From Asparagopsis taxiformis (lineage: Eukaryota > Rhodophyta > Florideophyceae > Bonnemaisoniales > Bonnemaisoniaceae), in assembly GCA_030407315.1 (NCBI GenBank), contig JALQPE010002015.1, positions 62,001 through 126,000 on the forward strand: a stretch of DNA of 64,000 bases, given 5' to 3'. Positions within the stretch are counted from its first letter, which is position 1, and each line of letters starts with the position of its first letter. The position numbers and the translations under genes are program-made. The notes below the pieces were generated by a model. That model made no database searches, was not told the origin of the DNA, and saw only the letters and a program-made list of their open reading frames with translations. Shown piece after piece: positions 37,942-64,000 of the stretch.

Positions 37942-37965
37942 CACTACGGTGTTGAAAAGGGGGCC

Positions 37966-38300
37966 TCAGACAGTACTGCGAGACAGTGATTTTTACTGTC
38001 TGAGACAGTAAAATCACTATGCGGCAAATGAAAATTAATGCCACACTTGGAGACAGTGATTTGCACTGTCTGGCAGACAGTACGGAACACTGTCTGCAGA
38101 CAGTAAAAAACACTGTCTCACAGTACTGTCTGAGGCAGTGAATGGAGACAGTAAAAATTAATGATTTATTCAATAGTTGGATATGATGTAATTTACTGTA
38201 CTGGGCAGTGTTGGCGGATAGTGTTTTGTATTGGCCAAGGCAACATGGCCGGATAGTGAAATACGCTGCCTGGGACAATAGATGGAACCAACACGGTGCA
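37966..38300. repeat. Subterminal ACAGT/ACTGT repeats, left end
   Basis: Irregular units of GACAGTGATTTTTACTGTCT type with inverted symmetry, spaced 20-60 bp apart. They grade into the regular 35-bp tandem array. Confidence 0.65.
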
Positions 38301-38925
38301 CTGTCCTGGGCAGTACCTGGAGACAGTGATTTTCACTGTCCTGGGCAGTACCTGGAGACAGTGATTTTCACTGTCCTGGGCAGTACCTGGAGACAGTGAT
38401 TTTCACTGTCCTGGGCAGTACCTGGAGACAGTGATTTTCACTGTCCTGGGCAGTACCTGGAGACAGTGATTTTCACTGTCCTGGGCAGTACCTGGAGACA
38501 GTGATTTTCACTGTCCTGGGCAGTACCTGGAGACAGTGATTTTCACTGTCCTGGGCAGTACCTGTAGACAGTACTTTGTGCTGCCCTGGGCAGTACCTGT
38601 AGACAGTACTTTGTGCTGCCCTGGGCAGCACCTGTAGACAGTACTTTGTGGTGCCCTGGGCAGCACCTGTAGACAGTACTTTGTGCTGCCCTGGGCAGCA
38701 CCTGTAGACAGTATTTCGTGCTGCCCTGGGCAGCACCTGTAGACAGTATTTCGTGCTGCCCTGGGCAGCACCTGTAGACAGTATTTCGTGCTGCCCTGGG
38801 CAGCACCTGGAGACAGTATTTCGTGCTGCCCTGGGCAGCACCTGGAGACAGTATTTCGTGCTGCCCTGGGCAGCACCTGGAGACAGTATTTCGTGCTGCC
38901 CTGGGCAGCACCTGGAGACAGTAAA
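38301..38925. repeat. 35-bp tandem repeat, about 18 units
   Basis: The first half repeats CTGGGCAGTACCTGGAGACA + GTGATTTTCACTGTC almost without change. The second half drifts to CTGGGCAGCACCTGTAGACA + GTACTTTGTGCTGCC and then back to CTGGAGACA. Each unit holds an inverted ACAGTGATTTTCACTGT core, matching the subterminal motif. Minus-strand open frames here are only the repeat read in three phases. Confidence 0.9.
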
Positions 38926-40724
38926 AGTAGTGTCCTGATATAGTAAAATTCGGTGTCTGGGAGTGGTGGATGAGATGGAGCGTCACGCTGTCGTGGGCAT
39001 CTTTCTGGGGTAGAGGAAGGCAGTTCTAGCGCTATGAGGATGGGGCATGGACGGTATTCATATGGGAATGGACAGAATAGTACGGCTAGGAATTTTTATT
39101 TCGTAGTGACTATGAGCTAGCGAGAGGTATACGCGGTAGGATAGGTAGCAATCTAAGAGGGTGCGATATGGGAAACTTCACTCTGGATTTGTTTATTTGC
39201 GCAGGCTACATTGAGAATAAACAATCCCTATGTTAAAAATGCTACTACAACTAACACTATTCCGACGAGTAAAACTAAAACTACTAGAAAAGTCTAGAAA
39301 TCTATCAACTGATTGAGCTGCATGAATAAGCTAGGAAATGAAGAGAAGAAGAAAAAATGATGTAGAGAAAGGAAACAAGTTAGTGACGTTGAATTGGAGA
39401 GGGAAATTGATGGTGATTAGGAGACTAACGTACCTTAACAAATACCATTGCATCCCAAATTGAGATATGTACTCACAGGCAGAAAAGAAAATTAGTGGAG
39501 AAGTGGTAAGAGAGAAAGATAAATGAAAGTAGAATTGGAACACTCACCGACTGGAAACCTGAGAAAGAGAAAACGAATAGAAAACTGGGTTAGTGGCGTG
39601 AGTTGTGGAAACGTACCATCATGGTTCATATCCGTCGGAGACAAAGCAACAACTTTGGCCTTGGGAGCCGTATTGATGATCTAAAACTTACGCTTTGGAA
39701 GCAGTTTAGATGATCTATACGGCTTCCACGGCCAGGGTTGTTGCTTTGCTTCCGACGGATATGAAGATGGAAACAGGGATCTCCAGAATCTGTTGTTTAA
39801 GTAGCACTCTGCGGGCGGAAATGACGTGTACTCTAACAATAGAGGGATGAATTTGAAACGGAGCGGTGCGATGGGAGGCCCAGAAAAACGATACCTAGGG
39901 TGCGAATTACGCTTTGAAGCACATGACCTGGCAGAACAGGCGCAAAATTATTGTATCTTCTACCGCCTTCTCTAGTCTATAATGACGTCATCACTACAGA
40001 AATATAGGAAAAACACTAGCATATCGGGCCTACTGGAAAGGGGGAGGCGAGGAGTAGGAAAAATGGCGCACTTTCCTGGACGAGGAGTCCGCGCTTCCAG
40101 TGATGATTTGGACGGTATATATCGATGACGTCATTGCATGCTCTGAGCACACTTGGCAGGCAGTCAAAGCGGGCCACGTGGATGTGGGCGGCTAGGAAAC
40201 AGCAGTGTGGGAGAAATTTTATAATTTTCATGTTGCAAGCGAGCAGTGAATCTGCATTGCAATATATAAATTTATGCTAATTTAAGATATCACACCGAGT
40301 ACGATTCAACGAGAGATTGTGCTTTCAACTTGTAAATAGGGCCGAAAATGGTAGAGTATACGAGTAGGAAGTACGTGTATGAGAAAATCAGATTCAGTAT
40401 TAGTGCCTAGAGCATCACTGCGAAATAAACGGCCGTTTTCCGGAAATGGATACATCTTGGCTGGGTTTGTGGTTAGGGGATGCGATACAAGATAGCAAAA
40501 CGATGTTGAGTCCGGATGAAATAGCAATCAATGTGCATAAAGCAATGAGCATAGGGCAAAGCATTGTGGTGAACCAGTTCATTGGATCGAATGAAAGCCT
40601 GGAAAGGTTTCGTAACGGTTAAAAGTAGTAGTACTGTATTGAGATAGTAGTCATGTCATAGAAGTTTAGAGTTGTATTCTATGCAACAAAACTGAGCGAA
40701 GAAGAAAAGAACAAAAACATCAAG
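38926..40724. other. Non-coding spacer upstream of the transposase gene
   Basis: AT-richer DNA without a protein-like frame. It contains the long hairpin at 39,625-39,765 and presumably the transposase promoter; TATATAA occurs at about 40,262. Confidence 0.5.
39625..39765. repeat. Long imperfect hairpin
   Basis: Arms of about 65 bp: TTCATATCCGTCGGA at the left pairs with TCCGACGGATATGAA at the right, continuing through AAAGCAACAAC and GGCCTTGG blocks to the centre near GTAAG. It could fold as a small foldback element or as an RNA hairpin. Confidence 0.75.
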
Positions 40725-43700
40725 ATGGCTCCGAGACGGACTCCTATTCGAAAGAAAACCACAAGTCGTAGGACAAAGGCGAGATTCGATTCACTCAATG
40801 TGGCCAGTCCCAGTAAACAGCTTCCTGGGAAACTGCAGGGAGAAATCCGCAGCAGTGATGCAGCCTGCATGAACAAAGAAATCCCGAGAGGTAATGAGCT
40901 ACGACGTGAGTGTACCACAGATGACCTATTGGAGTCCCCAATCCCTATGGGTGACACAATAGAAGGTTGTATTGATGTGTACAGCAACAACGATGAAGCT
41001 GGAAGTGACATCTACGTAGCATCGAGCACGCTAATGGAATCGGAAGAAGCAACCGGACGAGGTTCTGATTCCATTTCAACTGGAGGCCCGATAGACCGAA
41101 ATGCTGGGGATGAAGCATGTGGTGATTTCAAGGCATTACTACAATGGCCTGCGATGTATGGGGCTCTTCAGCTGAGTGGAACTCAAAGAATGACAAGAGC
41201 CCACTATGAAGGTACCCTGTTCGGAATGAATTTCCGCAGAGATCCAAGTGAGCACGTCCCGTCGGACTCTGTGATGCGACAGAAGATACTACCATTCTTG
41301 AGGAAACACTGCTATGCAAAGAGCTGTGACATCGAGTTTCCGATAGACCTTCGAAAGAGCGGAGCAAGAGCTGCACAGCATCGAGGTGCAGTAGGAACCC
41401 GTGGAACAACAGATGACAGAGACAATTGTGGAGGAATGGCGAAAGTTCGTATTGTACTCCCAAGCACATGGGCTCTGAAAGATGTCCAGACTCGACCAAT
41501 CTTTGAATCATTCCGCAGTGATGCGAACAATCGAAGCTCAGAAGGAGAAAAATCAACCGCAGAGTGCAGCATTGAAGATTCGTTCATTGCAAAGTGCAGG
41601 AGGGGTGTTTTGAGCGACCCATTCGTTCGCACAGCAGTTGTTCCCATTGACAGCGATGGGAAAAAGGGTTTGAAGCACATTTATGTACCTGATGGAACAG
41701 CAATTCGAATCCGATGTCATCCAGGAGCTCGTCAGGTTGCCGTCATCGAAAGAGCAAAAGGGTTCAGGAAGAATGACAGAGATGGTGGGAAACCGAAGAG
41801 GAGAAGAGTGGCGGTTACGTCGTTGTGGGAACTTCATGCTAGGACCATAGTTACCTATGAGGCTCGACACGACGGTGAGCATGATGTGCATGTCGAAAAA
41901 TATCTGCAGCCGCGAATGTCACATCTATTGGAATGGGAGAGGCAGCATGCTCTGCGAGCGATATCGCAATGTGTAATCGGAGCAGGAGCCAAGGGAAAAG
42001 AAACACGAGCTGGGGACGTGATAACCGTTCTATTACCAATTGGAATGGAAGAGGGTGATATTGTTCCACACGTCGTATTGGTGAACAGGTATTTGAAAGA
42101 GCAGGTCGGAGAAGCATCCACCATGTTACTTTGCTTTTCACCGGGCGCGAGCTTTGCTGAAGCCAGAAAACCGCCCGATAGACTAGGAAGCCCCAACTAT
42201 GAAGAAATTCGTGTTTCAGGGGTGTTCTCGGATGGTTTCGGAGACCACAGGTCGCAATGGCACCCAGCGTCTCCGCGAGAAGATGCACCATGTTGGGGAA
42301 AGCTGGAGGATGGTCGAAACTACTTTGTTTACCGATTTCTCCTTTACACGGATGACTTCGAACCATTCACAAGCAGGAAGGGAAGTTTTGGTGGATGCTA
42401 TATGTTACCTCTCAATCTACCACCTCGGAAAAGGGGAAGCTACCAAGCGGTTCGAGTGATTGGTTTGCCACCTCCGGGAGTGTCCACAAATTGTGTATTG
42501 CGATATATCGTTCAAGATATAGTGCGAGGAAGCACAGAGGGTTTCCCAACGAAAAATGCAGAGGGAGAAGATATTGTGGTATTTCTAGACCCAGTGGGGA
42601 GCATTGGAGACTATCCTGCAGTTTCACATACCCTGGATGTTCTTGGACACACATCAAACTCTCCGTGCCACATCTGCAGTTTCCGCAAATATGACCTGAG
42701 CAGTACTGGTGGCACGAAGAATGCATACACTTCGGTAGTGAACGGGCAAACATCGACGCATGCCAGGAGCAAGTATCGGAATGCATCGACACGTAAGGAT
42801 GCCACAGAAACCCAGCTTCGCACTCTCGGACTGGCTGCAGAAGAAGGGGAAGATTTACCATTTCATGTCCTGAGCACTTCCTTGGAAGCAGTGCAGGAAG
42901 AAGTACCGAAGACGGAAAACGGAGTTTCAGTTGTCCCAGCAATTTTTGACCCGTACCGTTCCGCAGTGATAGCACCTGACCATCTATTGTCTGGACTGGC
43001 ACAAGATGTACTGAACGCTTGTATTTCAGCTGCCAGCCCACGAATTCGAGAGGTAGCTGAATTGCAAATTCTGGGCGCTCTGAAGAAGTTCAGGATGGGA
43101 AGGCAGAACCGTTTATTTGGAACCAACAATCTGCTTTCCATGAACATGAGTGACATATTCAGTGTGCTTCTGATAGCACCTATGGCATTCGAAAACGCAG
43201 CTCGAATGATGGATGGGAAAGGGGAAGGTCATCGTGAAAAATTTGATGGGGCCGTCAAACTAGTAGTGATGTTTCAGAAGCTGGTTTCGTGTATTAGTTT
43301 CATGCCCGTATGGTGGAAAGACGGTCCCCATGAAGTAGAGACGGCTGACGGAGAAGGTGGCAGGAATGAATACATTCTGGGAAGAACTGTAGACTACGTG
43401 GAGACGTTGAATGAGTATTGTCGGAAAGTGAAGGGAGCAGGAGCACATTTGGACAAGCCTAATGTTCATCGTCTTGTCGAGTTTTGTGTTCATACGCTTC
43501 CTGCCTACGGCTCTGTGAAGCACGTGCAGGAGCTTATATTCGAACGGATGCATCAGCCGCTGAAGAAAGGTGTGAGAATGTCCAATCACCAAAGCGAACA
43601 GCTTTCAGCGCTGGAATTAGTTCTTGCGGATGACTGGCAGACGAGAGTGGCCATTGTTTTGCGCGAAATCGGCATGGAGCCACAACATTGGTCCTCGTCC

Positions 43701-44528
43701 GAATGCTCTCAAATGGTCAACGTTCTTTCACAGGAGCTAGGGAGAGAAATAGATGTGGAAGACGAGGTAGTGAAAAACTGCTTCCAGGAACCGGTTCTCC
43801 AGCTTCTCTCCCAGCGTCGAGGAAAGATATTGTCGGCGGATGGTGAAATTGTGACGTGGAGAGGGCATGGAGGTATATCTATTGACGAGGTCAAGGAGTA
43901 CATGAATGGAAAATGTGATATGGCAGAGGGTGCTGTAGGTGTTTTCAAACGGTTCTTTACCGAAAGGTACGGAAGCGGAACAAGCGGGTGTGGAAAGTAT
44001 GCCGAATGGGTGAGAAGAGTTTCTAGAAGCACTACGACAGAGTGGGGAAGGAAAACAGTGCAGAGGTCTGGCTCTCTAGAATCAGGAGCTATCATCCATG
44101 CTGTTTGCCCTGAACAGAGGACATGTGAGGATGGTGCAACTTCACAAGCGATTCTGTACCCGGCGTCTCGTCTCACATCAGAGATAATGCGGGGAAGAAT
44201 TAATTATGAACCGCGGTTTTTTATTGTTCTAGCGTTCTTTATCCTGAGGAACGAGAGTGCGAGAGATGAGCAAGGTAGAGCTTATGGAGTTTGCCTGGGT
44301 TTGCAAAAAACTGATGAAGGAGTGTTCAAGGTCGAAGAGAGGCGACGAACAGTAATTGTGGAGATGAGTGAGGGAGTCACTGAGGTGTTTGGTATGCACT
44401 ATTGCAATGGGAGTGTATGCGAATATGATGAGAACATGAGGGAGGTAAGGCACGGACCCGGACTGCTGGAGGGTGGAGAGATATATGCACTATGTAGGCG
44501 AGACGGATTTCCACCGAGGGCTGCATGA
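40725..44528 (+). CDS. Tnp2/CACTA-type transposase
   Basis: 1,267 codons, one uninterrupted frame, ATG at 40725 in a good context (AAGATGG). The basic N-terminus has nuclear-localisation-like runs. The core resembles CACTA/Plavaka-type transposases: FLLYTDDFEPFTSRKGSFGG (first acidic site) followed by YMLPLNLPPRKRGSYQAVRV, then VVFLDPVGSIGDYPAV with LGHTSNSPCHICSFRKYD (second Asp plus a C-x2-C knuckle), and a C-terminal helical part, NVHRLVEFCVHTLPAYGS and LIFERMHQPLKKG, where FExxH would hold the third acidic residue. It excises and inserts the element by binding its ends. It is the best preserved gene of the element. The family call is from motif order, not alignment. Confidence 0.72.
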   Translation: MAPRRTPIRKKTTSRRTKARFDSLNVASPSKQLPGKLQGEIRSSDAACMNKEIPRGNELRRECTTDDLLESPIPMGDTIEGCIDVYSNNDEAGSDIYVASSTLMESEEATGRGSDSISTGGPIDRNAGDEACGDFKALLQWPAMYGALQLSGTQRMTRAHYEGTLFGMNFRRDPSEHVPSDSVMRQKILPFLRKHCYAKSCDIEFPIDLRKSGARAAQHRGAVGTRGTTDDRDNCGGMAKVRIVLPSTWALKDVQTRPIFESFRSDANNRSSEGEKSTAECSIEDSFIAKCRRGVLSDPFVRTAVVPIDSDGKKGLKHIYVPDGTAIRIRCHPGARQVAVIERAKGFRKNDRDGGKPKRRRVAVTSLWELHARTIVTYEARHDGEHDVHVEKYLQPRMSHLLEWERQHALRAISQCVIGAGAKGKETRAGDVITVLLPIGMEEGDIVPHVVLVNRYLKEQVGEASTMLLCFSPGASFAEARKPPDRLGSPNYEEIRVSGVFSDGFGDHRSQWHPASPREDAPCWGKLEDGRNYFVYRFLLYTDDFEPFTSRKGSFGGCYMLPLNLPPRKRGSYQAVRVIGLPPPGVSTNCVLRYIVQDIVRGSTEGFPTKNAEGEDIVVFLDPVGSIGDYPAVSHTLDVLGHTSNSPCHICSFRKYDLSSTGGTKNAYTSVVNGQTSTHARSKYRNASTRKDATETQLRTLGLAAEEGEDLPFHVLSTSLEAVQEEVPKTENGVSVVPAIFDPYRSAVIAPDHLLSGLAQDVLNACISAASPRIREVAELQILGALKKFRMGRQNRLFGTNNLLSMNMSDIFSVLLIAPMAFENAARMMDGKGEGHREKFDGAVKLVVMFQKLVSCISFMPVWWKDGPHEVETADGEGGRNEYILGRTVDYVETLNEYCRKVKGAGAHLDKPNVHRLVEFCVHTLPAYGSVKHVQELIFERMHQPLKKGVRMSNHQSEQLSALELVLADDWQTRVAIVLREIGMEPQHWSSSECSQMVNVLSQELGREIDVEDEVVKNCFQEPVLQLLSQRRGKILSADGEIVTWRGHGGISIDEVKEYMNGKCDMAEGAVGVFKRFFTERYGSGTSGCGKYAEWVRRVSRSTTTEWGRKTVQRSGSLESGAIIHAVCPEQRTCEDGATSQAILYPASRLTSEIMRGRINYEPRFFIVLAFFILRNESARDEQGRAYGVCLGLQKTDEGVFKVEERRRTVIVEMSEGVTEVFGMHYCNGSVCEYDENMREVRHGPGLLEGGEIYALCRRDGFPPRAA

Positions 44529-44648: not shown

Positions 44649-45184
44649 CTTACAGCAAAGTCATCGTTACGATGACTTTGCTGTAAGAAAACGTTTCCAT
44701 TACAGTGGCCAAGAATGTTTTACCGGGTAAAAAAATCGTGGCAGCTGTAATGATTTGCTTTCTTACAGCAAAGTCATCGTAACGATGACTTTGCTGTAAG
44801 GAACCGTTTCCTTGCAGTGGCCGAAGAATTTTTTACCGGGTAAAAAATCAGCAAGAAATTTTACCGGGTAAAAAAATTGTGGCCGCTGTAATGATTTGCT
44901 TTCTTACAGCAAAGTCATCGTTACGATGACTTTGCTGTAAGAAAACGTTTCATTACAGCGGCCACAATTTTTACCCGGTAAAGAAATCATGGCTACTGTA
45001 ATGTTTTCTTTTCTTACAGCAAAGTCATCGTAACGATGACTTTGCTGTAAGAAAACGTTTCATTACAGCGGCCACAATTTTTTTACCCGGTAAAGAAATC
45101 ATGGCTGCTGTAATGTTTTCTTTTCTTACAGCAAAGTCATCGTAACGATGACTTTGCTGTAAGAAAACGTTTCATTACAGCAAA
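44649..45184. repeat. Palindrome cluster 1
   Basis: Five copies of a perfect 39-nt hairpin (CTTACAGCAAAGTCATCG, loop TTA or TAA, inverted arm) alternate with a second palindrome built on TTTACCCGGTAAA flanked by ATTACAGCGGCCAC arms. Lies between the transposase and the first ParB gene. Confidence 0.92.
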
Positions 45185-45999
45185 TTCATCGATAGTTAAG
45201 GTTAAGTAACCAACTTTAGGATGTCCAGAGGACCTGCTCGTTGTAAGGAATAAGGAATATTGATCAACTGACGAAGAGGAAGCATTTTGAATCGACTAGG
45301 GTAGGAACGCAATGAGATTTGGTATGCAAGAAAACTGAATCGCAGTAGTGAATAGGTAGTTGAAATGAATTCATATTGATGTTCTTGGTGTATTGTCCAT
45401 TGGAGCACATTGAAAACCATTTATATGATCACCGTTTAAATAGTCTATGAATCCTTTGCAGCCGAGTACGCCAATAGGAAGAAATTCAAGCAGTGGCCTG
45501 CACGGGAACCGTTCATTTGTGAGTAGCAAAAGTTAGTGTAGAAATGAATTTTTCAGACTTGTAGGAGAGGTGGATCGTAGTAAATGTATAAAACTCACGT
45601 AGAATCGATTGATAGGAATCAATGGTACGGAAGAAGAAGCGAGGTGGAGAGTGTGGATGAAATAGGTTGTTGGAATATGAATGATAATTGACGTGGTGAG
45701 GTAAACGGGTTCGATTGCATTATATGCGCTAGAGGTACATACTATTAGGTGTAGATTGATGGAAAGGGCTAAACGCTTTGTGGAGGTATCAGGATCAGGT
45801 AGAGTCAGAGGTGCTGAGCGGGTGCAGCGTAAGGTTCATCAGGACTGAACGTAGGTAGGGAATGTCTTGTCCGGACAGTATAAGAGAGGAAGCTGAGAGA
45901 CGGGAAGCGCACTCGGAGGTACCACAATTGTGGATTTCATCGTCTACACAACATTTGAACAGAGAACCGATTGAACGAACTGAGATTGCAGGGATTACA
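45185..45999. other. Spacer upstream of first ParB module
   Basis: No RNA gene or repeat seen. The frame of the ParB gene is open from 45862 but the likely ATG is at 46000, so the promoter should lie here. Confidence 0.4.
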
Positions 46000-47311
46000 A
46001 TGGGAGACAATAGTATCATGAATACTACAGCGGAGAAGAGCAATTCTCCTTCTGCTGAAGAGAAAAGCATCACTATTGCTCAGTACAGCTCTTCTAAAGT
46101 GCAAGTTGATCCTCGCAAAGTGAAATTTCCGACAGTGACCTCCCGTTTGGTGCGACCGGGTCGTGTAAACGAACTGGCCAGCATTTTCATGGATAGAGGT
46201 TTCTCTACCACTGGAACTATGATTACAGTCTGCAAAATGGAAGATAACGAAGGAGACGAGTTTTACTGCATCGATGGCTCTCATCGCATAGCTGCTCTGC
46301 AACTATGCCTGGAGAAGTACTCAGGAAAGAACAGGGATTCCTTGGAATTGGTTTGGGTACAACAGTTGATTGCGCCGAACGGGCGTCTAATTTTCGATGC
46401 GCTGGAGGTTCTGAAACTGTCTCTCGAAGCCAATATACAAACTCACGATGTCGCTTCTGTGAGCATTGCCGACAATGTGTGTGCGGTCATAGAGTTTCTC
46501 AGGTTTTCCAACCAGATGGATCTTCCTGTTGTCCGGCTTATTCCTATTCTGAAAGAAGAGCTATATTCTGCCGTCCGACAGGAACCGTTCGGAGAACTCG
46601 TATAGGCAGTACATCAACATTGCGAAGGGGTTCAATCGCACAGACAGCGTTGCTTTCGTGTACTGGAGCTCTATCCCTAGCGTTTACAATGCTTTGGATA
46701 GGAACAGAGAAATCGAGGATGCAAGAACCGAGGGAAGAGATCCGGACTTTTCTCGAATTGACTCTGCCGATATGTACGGGTGCGTGCTCGATCTTGTCAA
46801 TAACGCAATATTCCGCAATGGCACGGACGGACGCGGGACGCGCGATAAGGAGTGGTTCCAGTGGTTTGTGCTCGAGATGACAGCGTCGTGGACAAGGATG
46901 AGGAGGAAGAGAGGACTTGTCAGAAATATCGGAAGCGGAAGTCCGTTCACGATGCGCACTTGGCTACTGGCTCTGTTGGCCATCTATGATATGGCAGAGG
47001 TCGTCCGCAAGTGGTTGAACTCTGCAACGATGGAGGAATTCGTGCGAACGGATTTGGCAGCAGAAAACGCGAAGGAGGTCGGGGATAATGATCATCGCAT
47101 TGGAGAGCGCATTGTATTCGTCCTTGTCGACTTTCATGACGACGTGGTAGACAGTAGCAGTCTGAGAACCAAGAACGGGATGTTTACAAAGTTTTTACGA
47201 CAAACTGGAATATGCTACCGGGACAAAGGCAATGCAGGAGACGAAAGCGGAGGAGAGAGGAGAGGAACGGAATCGCATGACCCCCGGAGAAATAGAAAAA
47301 GCACTTGTTGA
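46000..47311 (+). pseudogene. ParB-like domain protein, copy 1
   Basis: From ATG 46000: SRLVRPGRVNELASIFMDRG, then YCIDGSHRIAALQL, the DGxHR..A box of the ParB/sulfiredoxin fold (in ParB a nucleotide-binding motif, in relatives a nuclease or ATP site). ASVSIADNVCAVIEFLRF follows. A one-base step near 46,590 moves the frame to SYRQYINIAKGFNRTD and WFVLEMTASWTRMRRKRG, both matched in copy 2. Another step near 47,200 enters a Glu/Ala-rich linker (47232-47837). Nuclear DNA-binding role inferred. Likely once the N-terminal half of a fusion with the oxygenase at 47810. Confidence 0.65.
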
Positions 47312-47809
47312 TGGCGCCAAAGCAGAAGACGAAGAAGCACCTACTGCCGCAGAACAGGGAAATAATTCTACAGAGAAGGAAACTGTGGAAACTTCTGGTC
47401 CTGTTCAAGCAGAAGAAGGAGTATCTGCCGAAGCCCAAGCAGAGCAGGAAGTTTCTGCTGTTGTGGAGGAAGAACAGGAAATTACTCCAAATGTGGTGGC
47501 TGAAGAAGTGATTCCTGCTGTCGCGACGAAAGCAATAGAAGAGGCACCTCTGAGCACCCCGAAAGAAGCAGAAGACCGTCCTGCCGCAGCAAAAGAGGGA
47601 GGACAGGAACGTCCTGCCACGCGTCTTGCAGCAGCTGAGAAGAGGGAAGCAGAACGTCTTGCTGTTCTCCAAAAAGAACAGGAACGTCTTTCAGCTTCAA
47701 GGGCAGAGCGGGAAAGTCGTGCCAGGGATAATTCGCCGGAAGGATTGTCAGAGAAGATCTTCCTCAGGGAAGGAAACAAAGCGGCGATACGCAAAGTCTG
47801 GATATCAAC

Positions 47810-49340: not shown

Positions 49341-49620
49341 CTTACAGATGATGCAGTTTCGCTGGGGTGCTGACAGCAAAGTCATCGTACGATGACTTTG
49401 CTGTAAGATTGATTTCTTACAGCAAAGTCTCGTAACGATGACTTGCTGAAGAAATCAAATCATTACAGCGGCCACAATTTTTTACCGGGTAAAAAATTCT
49501 TGCTGATTTTTTTACCCGGTAAAATTTTCTCACCACTGTAATCAAACCTTTCCTTACAGCAAAGTCATCGTAACGATGACTTTGCTGTAAGCATCCCGGG
49601 TAAACGGCTTCGGCTGTAAG
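49341..49620. repeat. Palindrome cluster 2
   Basis: Three hairpin units (one decayed: AAAGTCTCGTAACGATGACTT) with the TTTACC/GGTAAA palindrome between. Outer bases CTTACAG...CTGTAAG are inverted. Right flank GGGAGTTTCGTCC recurs inverted beside clusters 4 and 5. Confidence 0.85.
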
Positions 49621-50161: not shown

Positions 50162-50483
50162 CTTACAGATGGAGCAGTTTACCAGGGATGCTTACAGCAA
50201 AGTCATCGTTACGATGACTTTGCTGTAAGGAAAGGTTTCATTACAGTGGCCATGATTTCTTTACCCGGTAAAAAAATTCCTGGCCGCTGTAATGAAAACG
50301 TTTCTTACAGCAAAGTCATCGTAACGATGACTTTGCTGTCAGGAAACAAAACATTACAGTGGCCATGATTTCTTTACCCGGTAAAAAAATTCCTGGCCTC
50401 TGTAATGAAACGTTTCCTTACAGCAAAGTCATCGTAACGATGGCTTTGCTGTAAGGATCCTTGGTAAACTGCCTGAGCTGTAA
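50162..50483. repeat. Palindrome cluster 3
   Basis: Three hairpin units at about 50,191, 50,304 and 50,417. Terminal inverted sequence CTTACAG-GCAGTTTACC / GGTAAACTGC-GCTGTAA encloses the cluster, so it has the form of a discrete MITE-like insertion. Confidence 0.88.
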
Positions 50484-52990: not shown

Positions 52991-53126
52991 TGCCCAGAAG
53001 GAGTACCCGCCTGCAAGCGAGTCGTTCCGGTCGTGGTGGAACGGCGGGTGGTGCTGTGGAGGTCGTCGAGCTGGAGAGCGCCCCCGAGGATGCGGGTGAA
53101 AACTCCATCCTCCTCGGAAGCGTAAC

Positions 53127-54338
53127 TTGGAAGCCGCTTCTGCGACGCCCGAGCCTTCTACCAAAAAGAGAAGGCTCGGTGAGACTTCATCAAAGTCGTC
53201 GTCAAAGAAATCCAAGTCGGCTTCCCGAGGTCGCTCTCGGGAGCCGGTTCTCCAGTTCGACGACGCCCAGGAGAATCCCATTCCCGACAGCATCGTCGAT
53301 GAGAATGTGGCCGCCGTTCTCCCCAGCGCAATTGCGTCTGGCAGCCGGATGAAGTACTATATGGAAAGTACGACGGTGGAGACGGTTCGGGCGGAAATGA
53401 GGGCGGCAGCATTCCAGGCAGCTGCATCGCCGGGTGCTGAGGATACGGTGGTGGACAGGTACTTTGCGGTGAAGAAGGCATTGTTGGAAAACTTGGGGGT
53501 TATTGTTATGGAAGGCCTGTTGGCATCGTCCACGGCTGGTAATGCGACGCATGAGTTGTTCGGTCACTTCGCTAGGCAGTTCCCGCTGGTTGAGGAGGTT
53601 GAAAAACCCTCCCAGCAGTCTGATTCTAACGATGACGACAGGGAGCCACAGGACGAGCCGCCAGCTTTCGCAAAGCCCGGCTTCGATCCTTCGCCGTGGC
53701 AGTTCATCCACAACGTGGGTGATGCGAAGGACCGCATGGATGGTGGTCGTGGGCGCCTCTCTCTGCCGCGGCGTGAGTTGTGCGACAAGTTGGAGGAGGG
53801 GAATTTGGAGATGTATAAGAACAAGTTGGTGGCAGAGCTTGCTCTTGGTGTTTGTGCGGAGTTCTTGAAGTTGGGAATGGAGGGTGAGGATCCTGTCTTC
53901 TTCCCGAAGACAGGATTGCGGCTGCTTCTTACAGCAGATGGGGCTGCGGACCAGGATGGGCACACGGACTTCAAGGTAGCGACGAATAGTGTTGGAAGTC
54001 CTACCACGTCTCCATCATATTTCATGATGTCGAGCGGAGCCGATGGGTTCTCTATAGTAGTTGCCCCTTATAGTCATGTATGCCTGGCCAGTCCGGGCGC
54101 CGATATGTGGAAGGTTCCCCCTCTCATCTTTTGGGTGCCACCCTATTCCGTATTGGTTGGTCGCGGTGACCTTTACCATTACGGGGTCGGCTTCAGCCGA
54201 GGAGATCTTCCTGCAGGCGAGAAGTTAGTCTATGGCCTGCCCACGCGCGGCCACATCTACTTGAAGACGGAGAAGGACGTCCTCACGGACCACATCCACA
54301 CCGTCGAATATTACAAGTACGATAGGAGCAATAGATAG
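53127..54338 (+). CDS. 2OG-Fe(II) oxygenase-like domain, copy 2
   Basis: A 403-codon frame without an ATG start (opens at TTG 53127; in frame upstream it reads PPRKRNL). A fourth one-base step near 53,110 separates it from the ParB linker, so it is probably the C-terminal half of one fusion. Nuclear-localisation-like KKRRL and SKKSKSASRGRSR occur at 13-37. Domain: LLLTADGAADQDGHTDF with H279-D281, SPSYFMMSSGADGFSIVVAP, VPPYSVLVGRGDLYHYGVGF with H351, and LPTRGHIYLK with R374. This gives an HxD...H metal triad and a candidate Arg. It predicts hydroxylation or oxidative demethylation; the substrate (DNA base, histone or other) is unknown. A 160-180 acidic insert is absent in copy 1. Start uncertain. 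Confidence 0.62.
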   Translation: MEAASATPEPSTKKRRLGETSSKSSSKKSKSASRGRSREPVLQFDDAQENPIPDSIVDENVAAVLPSAIASGSRMKYYMESTTVETVRAEMRAAAFQAAASPGAEDTVVDRYFAVKKALLENLGVIVMEGLLASSTAGNATHELFGHFARQFPLVEEVEKPSQQSDSNDDDREPQDEPPAFAKPGFDPSPWQFIHNVGDAKDRMDGGRGRLSLPRRELCDKLEEGNLEMYKNKLVAELALGVCAEFLKLGMEGEDPVFFPKTGLRLLLTADGAADQDGHTDFKVATNSVGSPTTSPSYFMMSSGADGFSIVVAPYSHVCLASPGADMWKVPPLIFWVPPYSVLVGRGDLYHYGVGFSRGDLPAGEKLVYGLPTRGHIYLKTEKDVLTDHIHTVEYYKYDRSNR

Positions 54339-54811: not shown

Positions 54812-55155
54812 CTTACAGCCGAAGCCGTTTACCAGGGTTCCTTACAGCAAAGTCATCGTAACGATGACTTTGCTGTAAGGAACCGTTTCCTTGCAGTGGC
54901 CGAAGAATTTTTACCGGGTAAAAAATCAGCAAGAAATTTTACCGGGTAAAAAATTGTGGCCGCTGTAATTTTTTTCTTTCTTACAGCAAAGTCATCGTTA
55001 CGATGACTTTGCTGTAAGAAAACGTTTCATTACAGCGCCACAATTTTTTTACCCGGTAAAGAAATCATGGCTGCTGTAATGATTTTTCTTACAGCAAAGT
55101 CATCGTAACGATGACTTTGCTGTCAGCACCCCGCCGGAACTGCCAAAGCTGTAAG
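54812..55155. repeat. Palindrome cluster 4
   Basis: Three hairpin units (about 54,840, 54,978 and 55,087) with the TTTTACCGGGTAAAA palindrome between; enclosed by CTTACAGCCGAAGCCGTTTACC and its partner at the right end. Confidence 0.88.
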
Positions 55156-55603: not shown

Positions 55604-55680
55604 CAGCAGGGAGTTTCGTCCTTCTCCCATCTTGGTAAAGGTACCTTTACCAAGAAGGGAGAAGGACGAAATCCCTGCTG
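55604..55680. repeat. 77-nt near-perfect palindrome
   Basis: CAGCAGGGAGTTTCGTCCTT on the left is mirrored on the right around the centre GGTAAAGGTACCTTTACC. It contains the shoulder sequence GAGAAGGACGAAA that borders the palindrome clusters and runs straight into cluster 5. Confidence 0.88.
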
Positions 55681-56132
55681 CTTACAGCTGAAGCCGTTTA
55701 CCAGGGTTCCTTACAGCAAAGTCATCGTTACGATGACTTTGCTGTAAGAAAACAAATCATTACAGCAGCCACGATTTCTTTACGGGAAAAATTGTGGCCG
55801 CTGTAATGAAACGTTTTCTTACAGCAAAGTCATCGTAACGATGACTTGCTGTAAGGAACCGTTTCCTTGCAGTGGCCAAAGAATTTTTTACCGGGTAAAA
55901 AATCAGCAAGAAATTTTACCGGGTAAAAAATTGTGGCCGCTGTAATGTTTGCTTTCTTACAGCAAAGTCATCGTTACGATGACTTTGCTGTAAGAAAACG
56001 TTTCATTACAGCGGCCACAATTTTTTTACCGGTAAAGAAATCATGGCTGCTGTAATGATTTGTTTTCTTACAGCAAAGTCATCGTAACGATGACTTTGCT
56101 GTCAGCATCCCCGGTAACGGCCCGCACTGTAA
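55681..56132. repeat. Palindrome cluster 5
   Basis: Four hairpin units (about 55,709, 55,817, 55,954 and 56,067) alternating with TTTTACCGGGTAAAA-type palindromes. Lies between oxygenase copy 2 and the SET gene. Confidence 0.9.
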
Positions 56133-56405: not shown

Positions 56406-57080
56406 TCAGTTAGCTGGCCAATATTTTCTACCATAGTCAGCAAATATCTCCTCATCAGCTTCAACGTCTCTGGTCAGAACGACCTTGACAGCATGGGGAT
56501 TCTTGATATTCGAAGCAAAGTCCGGTTTGTCTATGGCATCGCCTTGTCGAAACTCGGCTGACTGTGTTCGACTCACCTCGGTCGCTTTCTCCGTTCCGTC
56601 AATGACCCGACAATCATTGAGGTAGCTGGTACAATTATAGACCGCTGGAACGAGCCAGACCTTCCGAACAGGTGCACCCCTCCCTATGTACGTGGTTTCC
56701 AATTCCATGTTGTAGTCCTGGAACCTCTGTCCTGTGCACCCAAATCCTTCCGGGCCGTACATCACTGATCTCTGCGGTTCCGAGTCTCGAATCTTCGCAT
56801 AGAAAATCGTCCCGTTGTACCAGCCAATGACCGTCCCCTTCTTCAGTTTCTTCGCCGCGAATACGCCAAACCCACCACCTCTTACCTCCGATTGCGAAAC
56901 ATAGACACCGTAGAATGCGGCATCAGCAGCCAGAATCGCGTCCGGGTCTATGCTCCAAAACGAGTGCATGTCCTCGGCCGGCCACTGGTCCATAGGCACC
57001 CCGCTCAATCTGTGAAGCATAGAACCGTCCTTCTTCATTGACGCAACGAACACAAGCAGATGGTTCGGCAATGCTGTCAC
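56406..57080 (-). CDS. SET-domain protein (possible C-terminus of a fusion)
   Basis: A 224-codon frame; it opens with GTG at 57080 and is open further upstream, so the true start is unclear. SET features: VRGGGFGVFAAKKLKKGTVI (67-85, the GxG AdoMet-binding start), GWYNGTIFY, VPAVYNCTSYLNDCR (146-158, in the place of the NHxCxPN core but with Asn-Asp-Cys), and HAVKVVLTRDVEADEEIFAD with YGRKYW (196-221, the catalytic Tyr strand). Known: SET proteins methylate lysines, often on histones. The replaced NHS core may alter AdoMet binding. It follows the methyltransferase in the same direction, about 200 bp on. Could be one polypeptide with it, split by a frameshift. Confidence 0.72.
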   Translation of the reverse strand: MTALPNHLLVFVASMKKDGSMLHRLSGVPMDQWPAEDMHSFWSIDPDAILAADAAFYGVYVSQSEVRGGGFGVFAAKKLKKGTVIGWYNGTIFYAKIRDSEPQRSVMYGPEGFGCTGQRFQDYNMELETTYIGRGAPVRKVWLVPAVYNCTSYLNDCRVIDGTEKATEVSRTQSAEFRQGDAIDKPDFASNIKNPHAVKVVLTRDVEADEEIFADYGRKYWPAN

Positions 57081-58270
57081 AGCAGGTAAACCTTCTGGTG
57101 CATCTGAGATGTGCTTCTGACGAAGCCTTGGAGCTTTTCCTGTGACCGGTACCGACTCTCCCCAAGAATACTCTCCACCTCACGCTGCAAGATCCCCCCA
57201 TATCGCCCGGCTTTCACCTCACTGACGAAAGCATGCAGTATCCACTCCTGCGATGCATCGTGGCACCTTTTTTCCTTCTCACAACCCAATGAACCGACGA
57301 TACGTACCATCCCTCAACGTCATACACGCTATGGCTGTGCTGTATGTTCCCGAGAAGAAATCCATCACGATATCGTTCTGCTTCGAAAATCGTTCCAGAA
57401 GCTCACGAAGAGTGGTCAACGCCTTCTGCTCATGGCGCAGTCGGTTGTTCTGCCCATCGTATTGAGCTTCACCAGCCGACAACCTCGGAACGTTGTCAAT
57501 CGCGTTGGTGAACCCAGGGTGCCTCGATATGTCCGGATTGTGCAACCTGTAATCCACCATATCGTATGCAGCCATACCCTTCCCCCGCTTATACGCATGG
57601 ATAACGAAATCGTGCATATTATGCAGTGTGCACGTTTTCGTCGATGGATTGGACGTAAAGCTGTGTGGTCGGCGAGATAGCACGACTGGAACACTGTCCA
57701 CAATCATCTTGCCAGGCTCGGCATTTCTGATTGCATCCATCCATGCCACGAGTTGGCGCACGCTGGAATAGATTAGAGCATGACCGCCAGGCCGAAGAAC
57801 TCGAACTATTTCACACGCAACACTCGCCAACTCTTCCGGCTCCAGAATATCGTACTCCGAGTTTTCTCTGCCGCCTTCCCGCCTCGTGTTGAATGGAGGA
57901 TCAGTGAGCACAAGCTGAACACTGTCCTCCAACACGCCATCTTCCAGGAAACTAATTTTGTCCTCCACCTCTTTGGCTACATCAGTGGCGTCACAATTCA
58001 CAGTGTGAATGTAACGCCCCATCACAGCTTCCAGCTTGGTGACATATTCCGGCTTGGATTCCTTTCCGACGTCAACGAGCGGTGCTTCTGTAGGCGATAC
58101 AGTGTCAACCTCCATAGCGTCATCCTCGGCCGCACCTTCTCTTGTTGCTGTTTCGCTAGCAACCGCCGCATTATCGTCCTCTCCACCACCGCGCTCCAGC
58201 CTAGCCTTCTTCCTCTGTGGCTCCAGACTATCCTCTTCTATATCCTCGCTGCCATTGTTGGCACTGCTGC
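57077..58270 (-). pseudogene. Beta-class DNA methyltransferase (N6-adenine or N4-cytosine)
   Basis: The main frame is 58115-57279, open upstream to about 58,270 through an acidic stretch with EPQRKKARLERG, a nuclear-localisation-like run. Motif order is that of the beta class: motif IV VQLVLTDPPFNTRREGG (72-75 DPPF) first, then EEIVRVLRPGGH-like helix and ALIYSS strand, and motif I near the end, IVMDFFSGTYSTAIACM (FSGTY for FAGSG). After RRFIGL a stop at 57279; a one-base step continues as CEKEKRCHDASQEWI to 57077, probably the true C-terminus. DPPF favours adenine-N6, but N4-cytosine is not excluded. It methylates double-stranded DNA using AdoMet. Such genes are common in phages and rare in algae. 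Confidence 0.75.
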
Positions 58271-59874
58271 GGATATTTCCATCTGCGCAGGTGCACCTTC
58301 AAGGATGCCAGGCTCGGGCGTATCCTCAAGACTGTGCAACTCATCCATGTCAGAGGAAGCTTTCGTTGCTCTCGGGTTCGCAATAACCAAGCCTTCAGCC
58401 TCCTCTGACCATCCAGGGCATGAGACGTGTTCAACTTGGCTCGCATGAACGAGTTCAATCCGAACTTGTCAGGAGTGTCGAAAAGCAAGGCTCGAAGTCT
58501 CTGCATCAGCTGACCACGCTCGGCGAACACATTCACCTCAGTGACACATTGGCGTATCGACAGCAGGAAGGCGCTTGTCAATGATCGCAGCCTTGCATCC
58601 ACAGCCACTGGAAGGTCGGCACAGAACCCGTTTTCACTGTCTACAGTTTTCGGGACAATGGTCAGGTTTTTCCGATGCTCCTCGACCGCGCAGCCATCAG
58701 ACCGATTCGGGAGTGACCTGAAGCAAAGGCTCGCAGGATCGAATACCATGAACGGCCAGCACATCGATTCAACATCCTCATACCCCAACACTCTTGCCCC
58801 GGTATCCCACGCAGCTAACACACGGTCGACAACAAATCCAAGCTGGTTGGCTTGCGCACTGGATGTTGCAATTCCAACCATTCCACCACCACCAATGGCC
58901 CCGGATGTGGCTCTGGCCCGCCTAGATGGCGCACTGCCCATCTCCTTACTGCGAATAGCCAAGATACACTGGCACATCATAACCATCAGCCTCCTGAACC
59001 GCTTCTGGCTAGCCTGCAAAGAATCTTGCATGTCGGATGTAGCGCCGTCTAGAAAGTACCTGCTCGAAAGCAGTTCGCGGTTCAGTGGAGAGGACAATTC
59101 TCCGCGGGGGTGTCTTGCCAAACATTTCGACGGCACGAGAACTAGTCACCCCCACCTGTTTCGGAAACTCAACCATCCTCGGAGAATCACCCATCTCTGC
59201 ATTGAGTCCCCATGCATGACAAAACATTTGCCACAGACGCAAATCAATCGCACTCGAATCTTCTGCTCGGTGATACGGCCGAAGCACAGCCAGGATAGAC
59301 ATGCATGAGCTGTACTGCGGTTTACCACTCAGGCTTGAAGCAATTTGGCCGCTTGGATCGCAGGACTTGATCCAGCCCAACACATCGGCCATCATCCTCA
59401 CAGACGAAATATGAGCGTACTTGTCCTTTCCTTTTGGACCCAGTACTCGTCTCTGAGATCAACGGCGATCATCAGATACTCAACAAACATCATGCGCCTT
59501 TGCAGGCCTGCAATGTCGTTGGATGTCGTCGCTCTCACACGGTCCAGCACAACAGCAGTACTGCTGTTGGTGTCCGCCACGATAGACTCTTCTCGCATAG
59601 GAATCGTAACGCCAGGAGGAAAGACGCCTTTCTCCATTCCACGTACAATTGCCATGCAGCGGTGCGCTCCATCCAATATCTCCAGAACGCCTTCTCGAAA
59701 CCTGCCAGTCACGGGATGAGCTGTGTCATAACCGCTGTTGCGAATGCTCTCCATGAGCGCTTCCACATGACTTGCATCAACATCGCGAATCGATACGAAT
59801 TTGCTGACTTGATTGGGGTCGATGAACACCCATCCGTCGTGCTTTTCACCGTGATTGTGGAACGTTCCTTCCAT
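58228..59874 (-). pseudogene. ParB-like domain protein, copy 3, upstream of the methyltransferase
   Basis: ATG at 59874. DGWVFIDPNQVSKFVSIRDV, then VLEILDGAHRCMAIVRGMEK (ParB box DGxHR..A). A step near 59,420 moves to VRMMADVLGWIKSCDPSGQI, another near 59,100 to GATSDMQDSLQASQKRFRRL and FVVDRVLAAWDTGARVLGYE. A last one near 58,385 gives EEAEGLVIANPRATKASSD, which leads into the acidic linker of the methyltransferase. Read together, ParB, helical middle, linker and methyltransferase form one collinear product; ParB-methyltransferase fusions are known from phages and plasmids. Divergent from gene A. Confidence 0.62.
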
Positions 59875-60383
59875 GGCGAACAAAGGTAGAGTTTTTAAGA
59901 AAGGGATAGTTGGTTGCTGCTTGACCAGGGTGGCGCAAAGCAGAAGTTGGTTGTTTAAAACAAAGTGTCAGCGAGTGGTAGCACTTCGGTGGCTGTTTCC
60001 TTTCCCCTGTCCGAACCTTTACAAGATAACTACATCGACTGTTAGCTCAATAATCAATGTAATACTAAAGTAATACTCAAAATATTTTCCATGCAATTTA
60101 TTGGGCCCCGTAACATCTCTAAGCGTATCTTTGTAGTCCAATCGTATGCATCCGACATTCACTTCTAGAACGATTATTCACATCAAATTTTATGCTGCAA
60201 TCAGTTCATGGCAGACATCATCCACACTGACGTGTCAATTTTGTCAATTGTCCATTCTATTTCTACACCACCTAAACATCTCTTCTGGACCTTTCCAATC
60301 CTCCTAGTATATACTACTCTTTAGCAGAAGGTAACGGTTAGGCTTTCACTAATACAACAATTCTATCCCATAGCTATCCCAAC
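59875..60383. promoter_or_regulatory. Divergent intergenic region, ParB-3 and gene A
   Basis: 509 bp, AT-rich, between two start codons facing away from each other. TATACTAC near 60,310 could serve gene A. No palindrome cluster here. Probable bidirectional promoter, by position. Confidence 0.4.
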
Positions 60384-61740
60384 ATGCTTCCTCTCGCTCC
60401 AAACGACGTTATAGAAGTTCAATGGGAACTTCGGCCGTTGGAGGAGGAAACGAAAAATGTGTGGTGGTCTGCAATCGTCAAGGAAATTACTCAGGTCAAG
60501 ACCGAAACAGACCCATTCCTCCATGCATTGCTCGAATACAAAGCTGAATATGGTTTCGACTCTACCCTTTCTCAAGTCAAGATTTCAGATCGTAACGAGC
60601 TCGTCGACAAGGATTCCGGAAGGGTTCTCCCGTGGCGAAGTGGTGAGCTTCGCAGTATGGACTCACCTGCATCCCCAGCAGAGAGAGACCCGGACTACGG
60701 CATTGACCACACTCGCCACCGCCACCGCGGCATCCTTCAAGATTGCACTGCGGATCAAATGAAGAAGACCATAGCAGAAATGCTGGCAAGATTGGAAAGC
60801 TGGAGTCAGCTGCCAAACATCCTCTTCCCCCTCCATTCGATTCCAACAGCTCCATGACCTCCTCTGCTCTGACTGTATGTAGCATTCTGTTTCAGAAGCT
60901 TGGTGTGTACACGGACAAGCCCCTCTCCCTCCGGATGACAAAATCCGAGCACTCCAGGGGAATGCGACAAACATCGCAAGAAGAAATCAGAGTACAGGCT
61001 GACTGCTCCCTTGCTCAATTCCGCACTATTGCCATTCAATGCAAGGCGAAAGAGAATCGTGATGTTCTCTTCCTGCCGTCCTTTGAGGACATCACCTTTC
61101 CCTCTGGAAATGAGTCGGATCTTTCCATCATTTTCCCCACCTTTCAGGCACTATGTGACTCCATAGGTACCTCGCAACACGGGTTCCAGAAATATTGGTG
61201 AAGAGCAGGGCGGAACGCGATGGAGGCAGCTCATCGATTGTCCGAATTTTAGGAAATCTAGTCGACGTTGACTGCTCTCATGATGCTCCTTCTTCCGCAT
61301 TTCTCGTCGGCTCATCTGCTTACGTCCTGTCCAGCCCAGACCAACGTATGACAGTTCTTTGCAGAGACTCCTACGAGTTTGACCATGTCAACAATACATT
61401 TTTACATCCCCTATGTCTTAGCCAACTATCACAGTCTAGCATCGTGGACTCTTTCCACCTACGTGATAAGCTACTGTTACTATGGAGCAACGTTTTCGTT
61501 ACTGTGGAGACGTATTCAGCGCCGAGCTTGTTACAGCACTTTCCAGCCTCTATCAACCGCAGAGACGTTTGGTACACTACATCTACGCTTACCTTGCTGT
61601 ATTTTCAGTGGTACTACTATATGCCAGGAGCTTGAAGACATTGGCTATGAGGCTATCTCTCGTCTTGGCTTCAATGCGGATTCAGACACTACCCACCCAC
61701 CCTCCCTCCACCTGCCACCTGCAGTCCGGAGCAAAAATGA
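60384..61740 (+). pseudogene. CACTA accessory gene A, copy 2
   Basis: ATG at 60384. The N-terminus (about 1-75) reads NDVIEVQWELRPLEEETKNV, WWSAIVKEI and LLEYKAEYGFDSTLSQV: a beta-rich SH3/Tudor-like pattern with a paired Trp, as in chromatin-reader folds (weak inference). Then come the acidic/His stretch and coiled part seen in copy 1. Single-base losses in A-runs near 60,797 and 61,188, and one more near 61,468, break the frame relative to copy 1. Natural end EQK-TGA at 61738. Convergent with gene B. Confidence 0.58.
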
Positions 61741-64000
61741 TAAAGCACCACCTATCCGTAGTTATCCTGTTCCTGGGTATTCCATTCTAGAGCTCCTGTG
61801 GCCATCAATTTCTAGTAAAGACGGATACCCTCGCCCCTTCCTACTTCGACTATTCCACTACCTGTCTCTGCGCTGTTCCTTCGACTTGACACTATCGTCT
61901 GACTGGTTTCCTGATGTCTCGCACCTATCTACTTCCATCTATTACAAAATTCACCTCAACAGAAATTTTATTTCTTCATTCTTCGTCTACTACACCGAAA
62001 CTGGTTTCATCCGATACTACTCCCCTTCATTCTCGATTTCATCATCGACGAATACCTTCACATATTCTGCATCTCCTCCGTCCTCTTCCATAGACCTGAA
62101 GCTCTCCTCCAGCACTGATTCCCCCCCATCGTCTACGTTCAGTTCTTCATATCTATCACGCGATATAGTCAAAACCTCCTCATTCATGAACCGACTACTC
62201 ACCCGCTCCCCGGGAAGAAGCAGTTTCACTGCTTCATTGATTTCCCGGATTTGCGCTCCTTCCACCTCTGTTCCACTTTGAAATTTCAAAATCGTTCGGA
62301 ACCCGTATGCAAGTATGTAGATGAATTGCAAGGAGTATTCTGAACGTCGCAGGAACATGTTCTTATCAGAACATTGCGTGTAGGCGACTGCAAAGTTCAG
62401 TGCAACCTCTACTAAATTGATCCTCCTAGTCAAAAACCTCTTGTCCGGTTCTCCAATTATTTGAACTTCGTACTCGACTTTGAATAGCATTTCTTTTCGC
62501 ACTGCAATGAAGTCGCGAAGAATCTTCATATTCTTGTCATCCATTGCTGCACGCTCCGCTGCATTCATTTTCCTCTGCGCCGAGTACAGACTTGGAACTG
62601 ACTCAATGTCCAGCCCACCGTCGTGCAAATGATGCTCCATTCGGACTGAACCTTGAAACCCACTGTATAGAACGAATCCAAGATCTCGGATGAACCGGTT
62701 TCGCACATGATCTCTGGACTTGTTCATAAACCCGGTCACTGCTGTGAGTGCCGATTTCGTCACAGTGATGCCTACCTCCTTTCTGTGCAACGGCCCATTG
62801 TCTCCAACCTTTCTTCGCTTCTGCTTTCGAGCGGCCCCATCACTTCCCTCGGACGTCCCATGCATTCCATCCATGCGAGCAGAGTCCGTTCCGCGAATTG
62901 TCTCCTCAATGGTCCCGGTAGTCACATACCCCGCGCCCTCCACCGTTCGATACCTTCCGACGTTCCATTGGAGCTGGAACGGTCTCCTCCCTCTCTGAAA
63001 GAATTGTTTTGACACGTATTCTTGATTAAAGAGGTCACAACTTGGCAGCGCAATTCAATGTGGTTCCGGCCGGCAAGCGTCCTATTGAACACATCCTTTC
63101 GCTCATTGCTCTGCCTGGCGAACATCAGCGTATTGATTAGCTGGCATCCGTTGAAATGCCTATCCCTCTTATCCACCATTGCCTTCGTGTACGTTGGAAC
63201 AACAGCACACAGCACAGCACACACCATTTCGAACGTGAACGATTTCTCCGCATCCTGCGCAATGCGGAGACGTTCCCTGTCCTTCTCGGAGGCGATCTTC
63301 TTCGGATGTCCTTGTCCCTGGCTCAGAAGCCCATCGACGATGCTCTTGACCTCCTGCATATCGGTGTTTAGCATGGAGACAGTCTTGGCGACATTTCCGA
63401 GAGTCTCGCGTAATTGAATGGTGCTCTTCTCGACGGCATCCATTTTATCACTCAGGGCTTTCAACTCTGCAGTGATGTTCGAAAAGCCCTCACGCGTTAT
63501 TTCGGAAAATGCGGCGATGCTTACGGAGGTTTCGGGATTCATCTTGACCTTGCAATTGGAGTTTGCTAAAAGGAGAATTGCTTTGAAGGATGTCACGCTT
63601 AGTACAGCAGTGTTGTAGCAAATATCATTTCAGTGGATGCATCCATCCTGGTCTACTCTACATAATAATAATGCTTCCCAGTGCTCCGTAACGGTTATTT
63701 TTCATAAAGTGGTGGATGGTGCGTATTCTTTCCTTTGCCACACCCACGTCCTGTGCATACCACACCTCGCTACCAGACTGACGTCTCCTACTAGACACTT
63801 TCAATGCAAAGATAGATAGGTATAATTTGAAATGCTAAACTCAACATATTATAGCTACTATGTACATTCTCTCCTTACGGTGAGACAAACCAGATATGTT
63901 CTGTTCTCCCAATCTTCCTTTCTCCAACGTCCTATTCAGCATCTAGCTTCCCCGCACCCAACTATCTGTAAAGCACCATCACAATTAATATAGTCGTATA
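60541..64000 (-). repeat. Long inverted repeat, right arm
   Basis: Pairs with 32,525-35,999. The last base of the window corresponds to 32,525. Upstream of gene B this includes the terminal non-coding part (about 63,600-64,000) leading to the predicted element end. Confidence 0.85.
62017..63542 (-). pseudogene. CACTA accessory gene B, copy 2
   Basis: ATG at 63542-63540. The coiled-coil start is intact here (LRETLGNVAKTVSMLNTDMQ reads through where copy 1 has a stop). A one-base change plus small differences near 62,930 shift the frame, and the C-terminal half runs to the natural stop at 62017, ending FVDDEIENEGE, a part lost by frameshift in copy 1. The two copies are thus damaged at different places. 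KQKRRKV occurs here too. Confidence 0.6.

Follow-up and report, generated by a model that had tools for sequence, protein, structure and literature searches.

Giant EnSpm elements have been reported from red algae. Those of Chondrus crispus are 16-20 kb long and contain 4-5 open reading frames (ORFs) (Kojima et al. 2013, as cited in PMC6431247), and others are found in Bostrychia moritziana (Petroll et al. 2025, as cited in PMC12477816). According to the available sections of PMC12477816, proteins joining a ParB domain to a methyltransferase (ParB-MTases) occur in transposons of green, red and brown algae; one of these, a 1,104-amino acid (aa) protein of the Ectocarpus element Sola1-1_Ec32, is proposed to bind and modify its own element. 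TET/JBP genes are carried by fungal transposons and SET genes by Phytophthora transposons (PMC12730594, sections available), and retrotransposon-borne cytosine methyltransferases are a related precedent (PMC5890265). The subject of this analysis is a 64,000-bp stretch of Asparagopsis taxiformis DNA (the window; C1889:62001-126000, from a contig that runs to 126,444), in which a preliminary description had recognized a giant CACTA-like element carrying modification genes. Such an element is present, with two ends and a predicted DNA- and chromatin-modifying cargo between them. It probably belongs to the CACTA (CMC/CMCT) clade of cut-and-paste DNA transposons, is autonomous and has a Plavaka-like transposase of RAG1/Transib fold, along with modifying enzymes that would be targeted by ParB-like domains and would mark or unmark the element. 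At the sequence level, the two ends match and are accompanied by subterminal repeats and 2-bp duplications; there are empty sites, a second two-ended copy, more than 100 near-identical copies of the cargo genes and an amplified deletion derivative.

The element resembles the red-algal giant EnSpm elements in its host group, CACTA/EnSpm type, excess size and several accessory ORFs. As far as the elements of Chondrus and Bostrychia are described in the citing papers, it differs from them in its length (26.5 kb), its 2-bp duplications and its genes PO1 and PO2 (paralogues with a ParB-like motif and a putative oxygenase domain). Like Sola1-1_Ec32, it encodes a ParB-like DNA-binding domain together with an N6A/N4C methyltransferase on the opposite strand to the transposase; unlike Sola1-1_Ec32, it has a SET domain fused to this protein (MT-SET), a CACTA/Plavaka-like rather than a Sola transposase and two more genes with the ParB-like motif (PMC12477816, sections available). 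Its transposase would place it on the same branch as Plavaka and the TET/JBP-carrying fungal transposons (Pfam Plavaka is weakly matched by relatives of the protein); duplications of 2-3 bp are common to both, as would be a DNA-modifying dioxygenase among the cargo, should the PO domain prove to be one. It differs in its CACTA...TAGTG ends, the lack of a TET/JBP match and the added methyltransferase-SET writer (PMC12730594, in the same sections). N4CMT of bdelloid rotifers also joins a bacterial-type amino-methyltransferase to a eukaryotic chromatin domain. In the available sections of PMC8885841, however, N4CMT is encoded by the host, carries a chromodomain and places 4mC on transposons, whereas MT-SET is transposon-borne and carries a SET writer. 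Neither an element with ParB, methyltransferase and SET domains nor a ParB domain fused to an oxygenase-like domain was found in the open-licence literature searched, which leaves out Petroll et al. 2025 and Iyer et al. 2011, the likeliest sources. The preliminary statement that no CACTA element with such a gene set had been described is too strong, as algal transposon ParB-MTases (PMC12477816) and red-algal giant EnSpm elements with accessory genes (PMC6431247) are already published, judging from the sections available.

Element ends and target sites

The left end of the element is the terminal inverted repeat CACTACGGTGTTGA (37942..37955, plus strand). The preliminary description had noted this CACTA terminus and its subterminal repeats and predicted an inverse end to the right. 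That end, TCAACACCGTAGTG, is located within the last 444 bases of the contig; its final base is at window coordinate 64,438 (L009:425-438), which is 438 bp right of the window and 6 bp before the contig stops. Because the left end is at 37,942 and the right end finishes at 64,438, the element is 26,497 bp long. Terminal inverted repeats starting with CACTA are an EnSpm/CACTA trait. GACAGT/ACTGTC is enriched at both extremities, with 38 occurrences in the first kb, 16 in the last kb and 0.41 per kb between. The left subterminal region (37942..38923), rich in GACAGT...ACTGTC, closes with a 35-bp tandem array of 17.8 copies (38301-38923), and the first part of the right subterminal region (63951..64000) continues beyond the window to 64,438. 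In the 141.49-Mb assembly searched (3,156 contigs), the end sequence occurs 1,431 times (722+709) and its reversed control 0 times. At 32084-35999, the right 3.9 kb of the element (64438-60535) is present a second time as an isolated, inverted copy (98.6%), with the same CACTA end and without the remainder. The CACTA end at 32,084 is part of this copy and was thus ruled out as the partner end.

A 3-bp target-site duplication, an EnSpm/CACTA trait that had been predicted for this element, is ruled out, as only 2 bp are repeated. Six end pairs have both flanks read (each pair being taken as one element) and four show such a 2-bp duplication: GC on C74, GA on C104, AG on C19 and TG on C1772, the last only when CCCTACGG, which starts with CCCTA, is taken as its left end. 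The C104 and C19 pairs are 14.4 kb in size, and the flanks of C44 and of the window copy share 1 bp only. The insertion in the window hit a gag-like high-copy repeat, of which the 200 bases before the element (37742..37941, plus strand) have at least 40 identical matches in the genome, including the window's own. Four other matches, those with the next bases read, represent empty sites in which the sequence continues unbroken. The right flank of the window copy consists of 6 bp (GCGGAT vs an expected GATCGG), too short to confirm the insertion site.

A second copy, on C1772, is collinear with the window element and flanked on both sides; leaving aside the tandem array close to the left end, the two are approximately 99% identical. 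The C1772 copy lacks approximately 1.2 kb of palindrome array, and its transposase and MT-SET frames are intact. On C74, a left and a right end lie 25,264 bp apart, with markers for the transposase, PO1, PO2 and the methyltransferase (MTase) in order between them. Both copies bear on the possibility that the element is an assembly artefact made of unrelated repeats joined at a contig end. The stop of the contig so close to the right end and the many indels of the window copy would fit an artefact, but the independent C1772 copy with its two flanks and the C74 pair with its 2-bp duplication and four element markers argue against it. This explanation is exceedingly improbable and can be considered largely refuted. 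The C1772 copy sits inside another gene with a ParB-like motif, DGLHRLNAM (L041:2-784 and the other flank), and 944 bp away there is one more element end, giving nested giant elements.

Transposase

The transposase gene (40725..44528, plus strand) is intact and encodes a 1,267-aa protein tentatively assigned to a Plavaka-like branch of the CACTA/CMC clade. Its core is RAG1/Transib-like, with the DDE residues and C(2)C motif that are a trait of the CMC/CMCT clade. The protein had been described as Tnp2-like. The transposase ORF stands, but a profile scan of 21 sequences (the transposase and 20 relatives) found no match to a Tnp2 model; the motif layout is similar to that of Tnp2 by eye only. 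Pfam Plavaka (PF18759) is matched by two of the 21 sequences, both of them relatives (best E-value: 5.2e-4), and not by the element's own protein. A PDB search with the transposase alignment gave no meaningful match. Members of the CMC/CMCT clade (EnSpm, Mirage, Chapaev, Transib, Plavaka and RAG1) have 5'-CA..TG-3' ends and 2-5-bp duplications (PMC12730594, sections available), and both traits are present here. The same source defines Plavaka ends as TGT..ACA (A) or CATCA..TGATG (B); these are absent from the element, which has CACTA..TAGTG.

When twelve transposase copies were read over their whole length and compared with one of their number, they differed at 0-10 bases; ten of the twelve were the best-ranked search matches and hence the most alike. 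Their seven distinct sequences contain 5 and 8 variable codons and are too alike for a count of synonymous and non-synonymous changes. Upstream of the gene is an inverted repeat with 61-nt arms (87% complementary) and a 19-nt loop (39625..39765).

Modification genes

MT-SET (56406..59874, minus strand) combines a ParB-like domain, a beta-class N6/N4 DNA methyltransferase (DPPF) and a SET domain. It is split by frameshifts into five minus-strand frames in the window; intact copies have a single uninterrupted frame of 1,186 codons, which encodes 1,155 aa when read from the first ATG. Methyltransferase and SET domains had been listed as separate items: both are present, in a single polypeptide with the ParB-like domain as its third part. 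A separate SET gene was ruled out because the domain is the C terminus of MT-SET. The methyltransferase matches PF01555 (E-value: 2.4e-16) and the predicted SET domain PF00856 (E-value: 4.3e-6; 27.5-31.1 bits against a cut-off of 22.4). DPP at 689-691 and FxGT at 871-874 are invariant across seven sequences. Among PDB structures, the MT-SET profile matches DpnA, CcrM and RsrI, and the single sequence matches none at E<=0.01. Because motif IV (DPPF) precedes motif I and the profile matches these three enzymes, the protein can be classified as beta-class; its methyltransferase is probably of the N6-adenine type. Six database relatives were found, one near-identical and five at 27-31% identity, and four of the six have both Pfam domains. 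The only named one is a Chondrus crispus protein with methyltransferase and SET domains that is labelled an adenine methyltransferase by its source. The methyltransferase part is found at 99-100% identity in at least 119 places in the genome, and it was the only one of four element proteins to match a PADLOC defence-gene profile.

PO1 (45862..49119, plus strand) consists of a ParB-like domain, an acidic linker and an HxD...H domain (putative oxygenase). PO2 (50689..54338, plus strand) is its paralogue, with a ParB-like motif and an HxD...H domain; the C-terminal domains are 35-40% identical. Both genes are frameshifted in the window and are single open frames on C1609 (1,087 codons for PO1 and 1,257 for PO2), with the PO2 frame also open in other copies. 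The PHROG 1033 profile ("ParB-like partition protein") is matched by MT-SET (E-value: 0.0031) and PO1 (E-value: 0.0071) at nearly identical profile positions, and the motif DGxHRxxA is present in all four sequences compared. There was no Pfam ParB match, and a PDB search with the ParB alignment gave no meaningful match. The ParB-like domain of the preliminary description is thus retained as a weak assignment. In the C-terminal domains, HTD and a distant H (GDLYHYG / TDVYHGG) are conserved between PO1 and PO2, an arrangement also seen in 2-oxoglutarate (2OG)-Fe(II) oxygenases. Of the proposed oxygenase-like eraser, this HxD...H motif stands; profiles, PDB and structure prediction gave no usable support, and the PO domain does not match the TET/JBP profile. 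For PO2, scoring of 8,000 candidates gave no homologue at E<=0.001.

A large, multi-gene element with a prokaryote-like methyltransferase and ParB-like domains could also be an endogenous virus or a virus-transposon hybrid (Teratorn/Polinton-like). The CACTA ends and RAG1-like transposase do not fit this origin, no Pfam capsid, polymerase or packaging family scored above cut-off among the element ORFs scanned, and IMG/VR holds no relative of the transposase or the putative oxygenase domain (the two proteins scanned there, MT-SET not being one of them). With no support from these viral-contig scans, a viral origin was rejected as very improbable.

Copies and cargo in the genome

Exact 24-mers, counted on both strands, occur 468 times for the transposase, 433 for PO1, 426 for the MTase and 176 for PO2, with 0 for the reversed controls. 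The presence of more than 100 near-identical gene copies in the genome suggests, from sequence comparison, that the element has spread recently. Pairing was analysed for 90 of the 100 listed MTase places (up to contig C445, the range also covered by the transposase list). A transposase 24-mer lies within 20 kb of 31 of these, giving 33 transposase-MTase pairs; 24 of them are in the convergent orientation seen in the window. PO1 lies between the two genes, in the same order, in 23 of the 24 convergent pairs, and the exact PO2 24-mer in seven. In eight of the 24 (one each on C64, C83, C126, C224, C308, C334, C377 and C436), transposase and PO1 are 602-603 bp apart; in the other 15 pairs with PO1 the spacing is 5.7-6.2 kb, with one at 4.8 kb. 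The common spacing of the eight pairs points to a single internal deletion that was amplified afterwards. The derivative was presumably moved in trans.

The copy on C1609 departs from the window element at 55,152, just after palindrome array 4, and an NB-ARC gene (E-value: 1.9e-22; L056:847-1869) takes the place of the right half. No right end is present in the 28 kb of sequence examined for this copy. The NB-ARC gene is either alternative cargo or a host gene beside a truncated element.

These data bear on the possibility that, within a real giant transposon, the modification genes are Pack-TE-style passengers, acquired by capture and of no service to it. The cargo does vary, with PO2 detected in only some pairs and NB-ARC at the expected right half on C1609, and the derivative is amplified although by spacing it lacks part of the transposase and PO1. 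However, PO1 and MTase 24-mers are roughly as many as those of the transposase, long intact frames are kept in many copies, the effectors have ParB-like domains attached and relatives of MT-SET exist elsewhere. ParB-MTase accessory genes are also known from other algal transposons (PMC12477816, sections available). Captured passengers are an unlikely explanation, though one with some weight.

Palindrome arrays

Five arrays of CAAAGTCATCGT[A/T]ACGATGACTTTG units are found in the element (array 1, 44649..45181; array 2, 49373..49600; array 3, 50191..50457; array 4, 54838..55133; array 5, 55705..56105). The units are 25-bp near-perfect palindromes forming the core of 39-bp hairpins (44656-56074). 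All are intergenic: none of the 14 is inside a gene, though genes span 65.5% of the element. The exact unit is absent from the left 37.9 kb of the window and from the 10 kb preceding it. There are 8,457 exact units (4,257+4,200) in the genome, and for 94 of the first 100 listed, an element end or gene from the lists is no more than 10 kb away, a count made without a random control. The palindromes are possible binding sites, terminators or breakpoints. Because C1609 departs right after array 4, with the NB-ARC gene beyond and no right end, the arrays may be breakpoints beside or instead of binding sites.

Other genes and features

As the preliminary description had noted, further genes adjoin the right end. 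One (60384..62281, plus strand) is divergent from MT-SET, and the other (62017..63542, minus strand) has weak coiled-coil-type matches; neither has an assignable domain in profile scans. Introns were ruled out as the source of broken frames, as intact copies are single open frames. The frame breaks of the window copy could be due to decay or uncorrected long-read error. An Rfam scan gave 0 matches. Outside the element, the window contains host genes at 571-6434 (diphthamide synthase-like, threonyl-tRNA synthetase-like and a BCS1-like AAA protein) and, in a self-comparison, several direct and inverted repeats of 0.6-0.8 kb at 11996-25819 that are 82-99% alike.

Proposed model

The probable function of the element as a self-modifying transposon would involve the following steps. 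The transposase would bind the element at its ends and at the subterminal repeats. Through their ParB-like domains, MT-SET, PO1 and PO2 would take their enzymatic domains to the element DNA, namely an adenine-specific DNA methyltransferase, a methyltransferase of the histone type and the putative oxygenase. Marked or unmarked in this way, the element may be kept expressed or protected against host silencing. In a more specific version, the ParB-like proteins would recognize their own palindrome arrays (in the manner of parS) or the subterminal repeats, confining the adenine methyltransferase/SET "writer" and the oxygenase "erasers" to this transposon and giving it a chromatin state distinct from that of the host. 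This version is tentative and, as a whole, rather doubtful.

The MT-SET and PO proteins might instead serve transposition, by marking ends, replication state or daughter strands, and have no part in escape from silencing. In bacteria, Tn10/IS10 transposition is gated by Dam methylation; here, the nearest solved structures include a CcrM-type enzyme, and most pairs keep the convergent arrangement. SET, however, has no obvious part in strand transfer, and a role restricted to transposition is distinctly improbable.

Several observations weigh against the self-modification model. Alignment to other copies opens 4-10 gaps in the window copy's PO1, PO2 and MT-SET (7-9, 4-10 and 7, respectively), none in its transposase, and 8 and 2 in the last two genes (60,384-62,281 and 62,017-63,542); PO1, PO2 and these two genes are broken in C1772 as well. 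Its own 2-bp duplication is not evident (GG on the left, GC on the right, where the flank is 6 bp). PO2 matches no ParB profile in PHROGs, and searches of Pfam, NCBIfam, PHROGs and PDB sequences gave nothing for the putative oxygenase; its AlphaFold model, built from two sequences, is unusable (pLDDT 32). Nine of the 33 transposase-MTase pairs are not convergent, and for 59 of the 90 MTase places no listed transposase 24-mer is closer than 20 kb, a count made without a check for contig ends.

Single epigenetic enzymes are already known from transposons; here, a DNA-methyltransferase/SET fusion and two more ParB-linked genes are found on one element. With more than 100 near-identical gene copies in one genome, a transposon-run chromatin programme becomes directly testable, and the element might supply targeted adenine methylation from a eukaryotic source.

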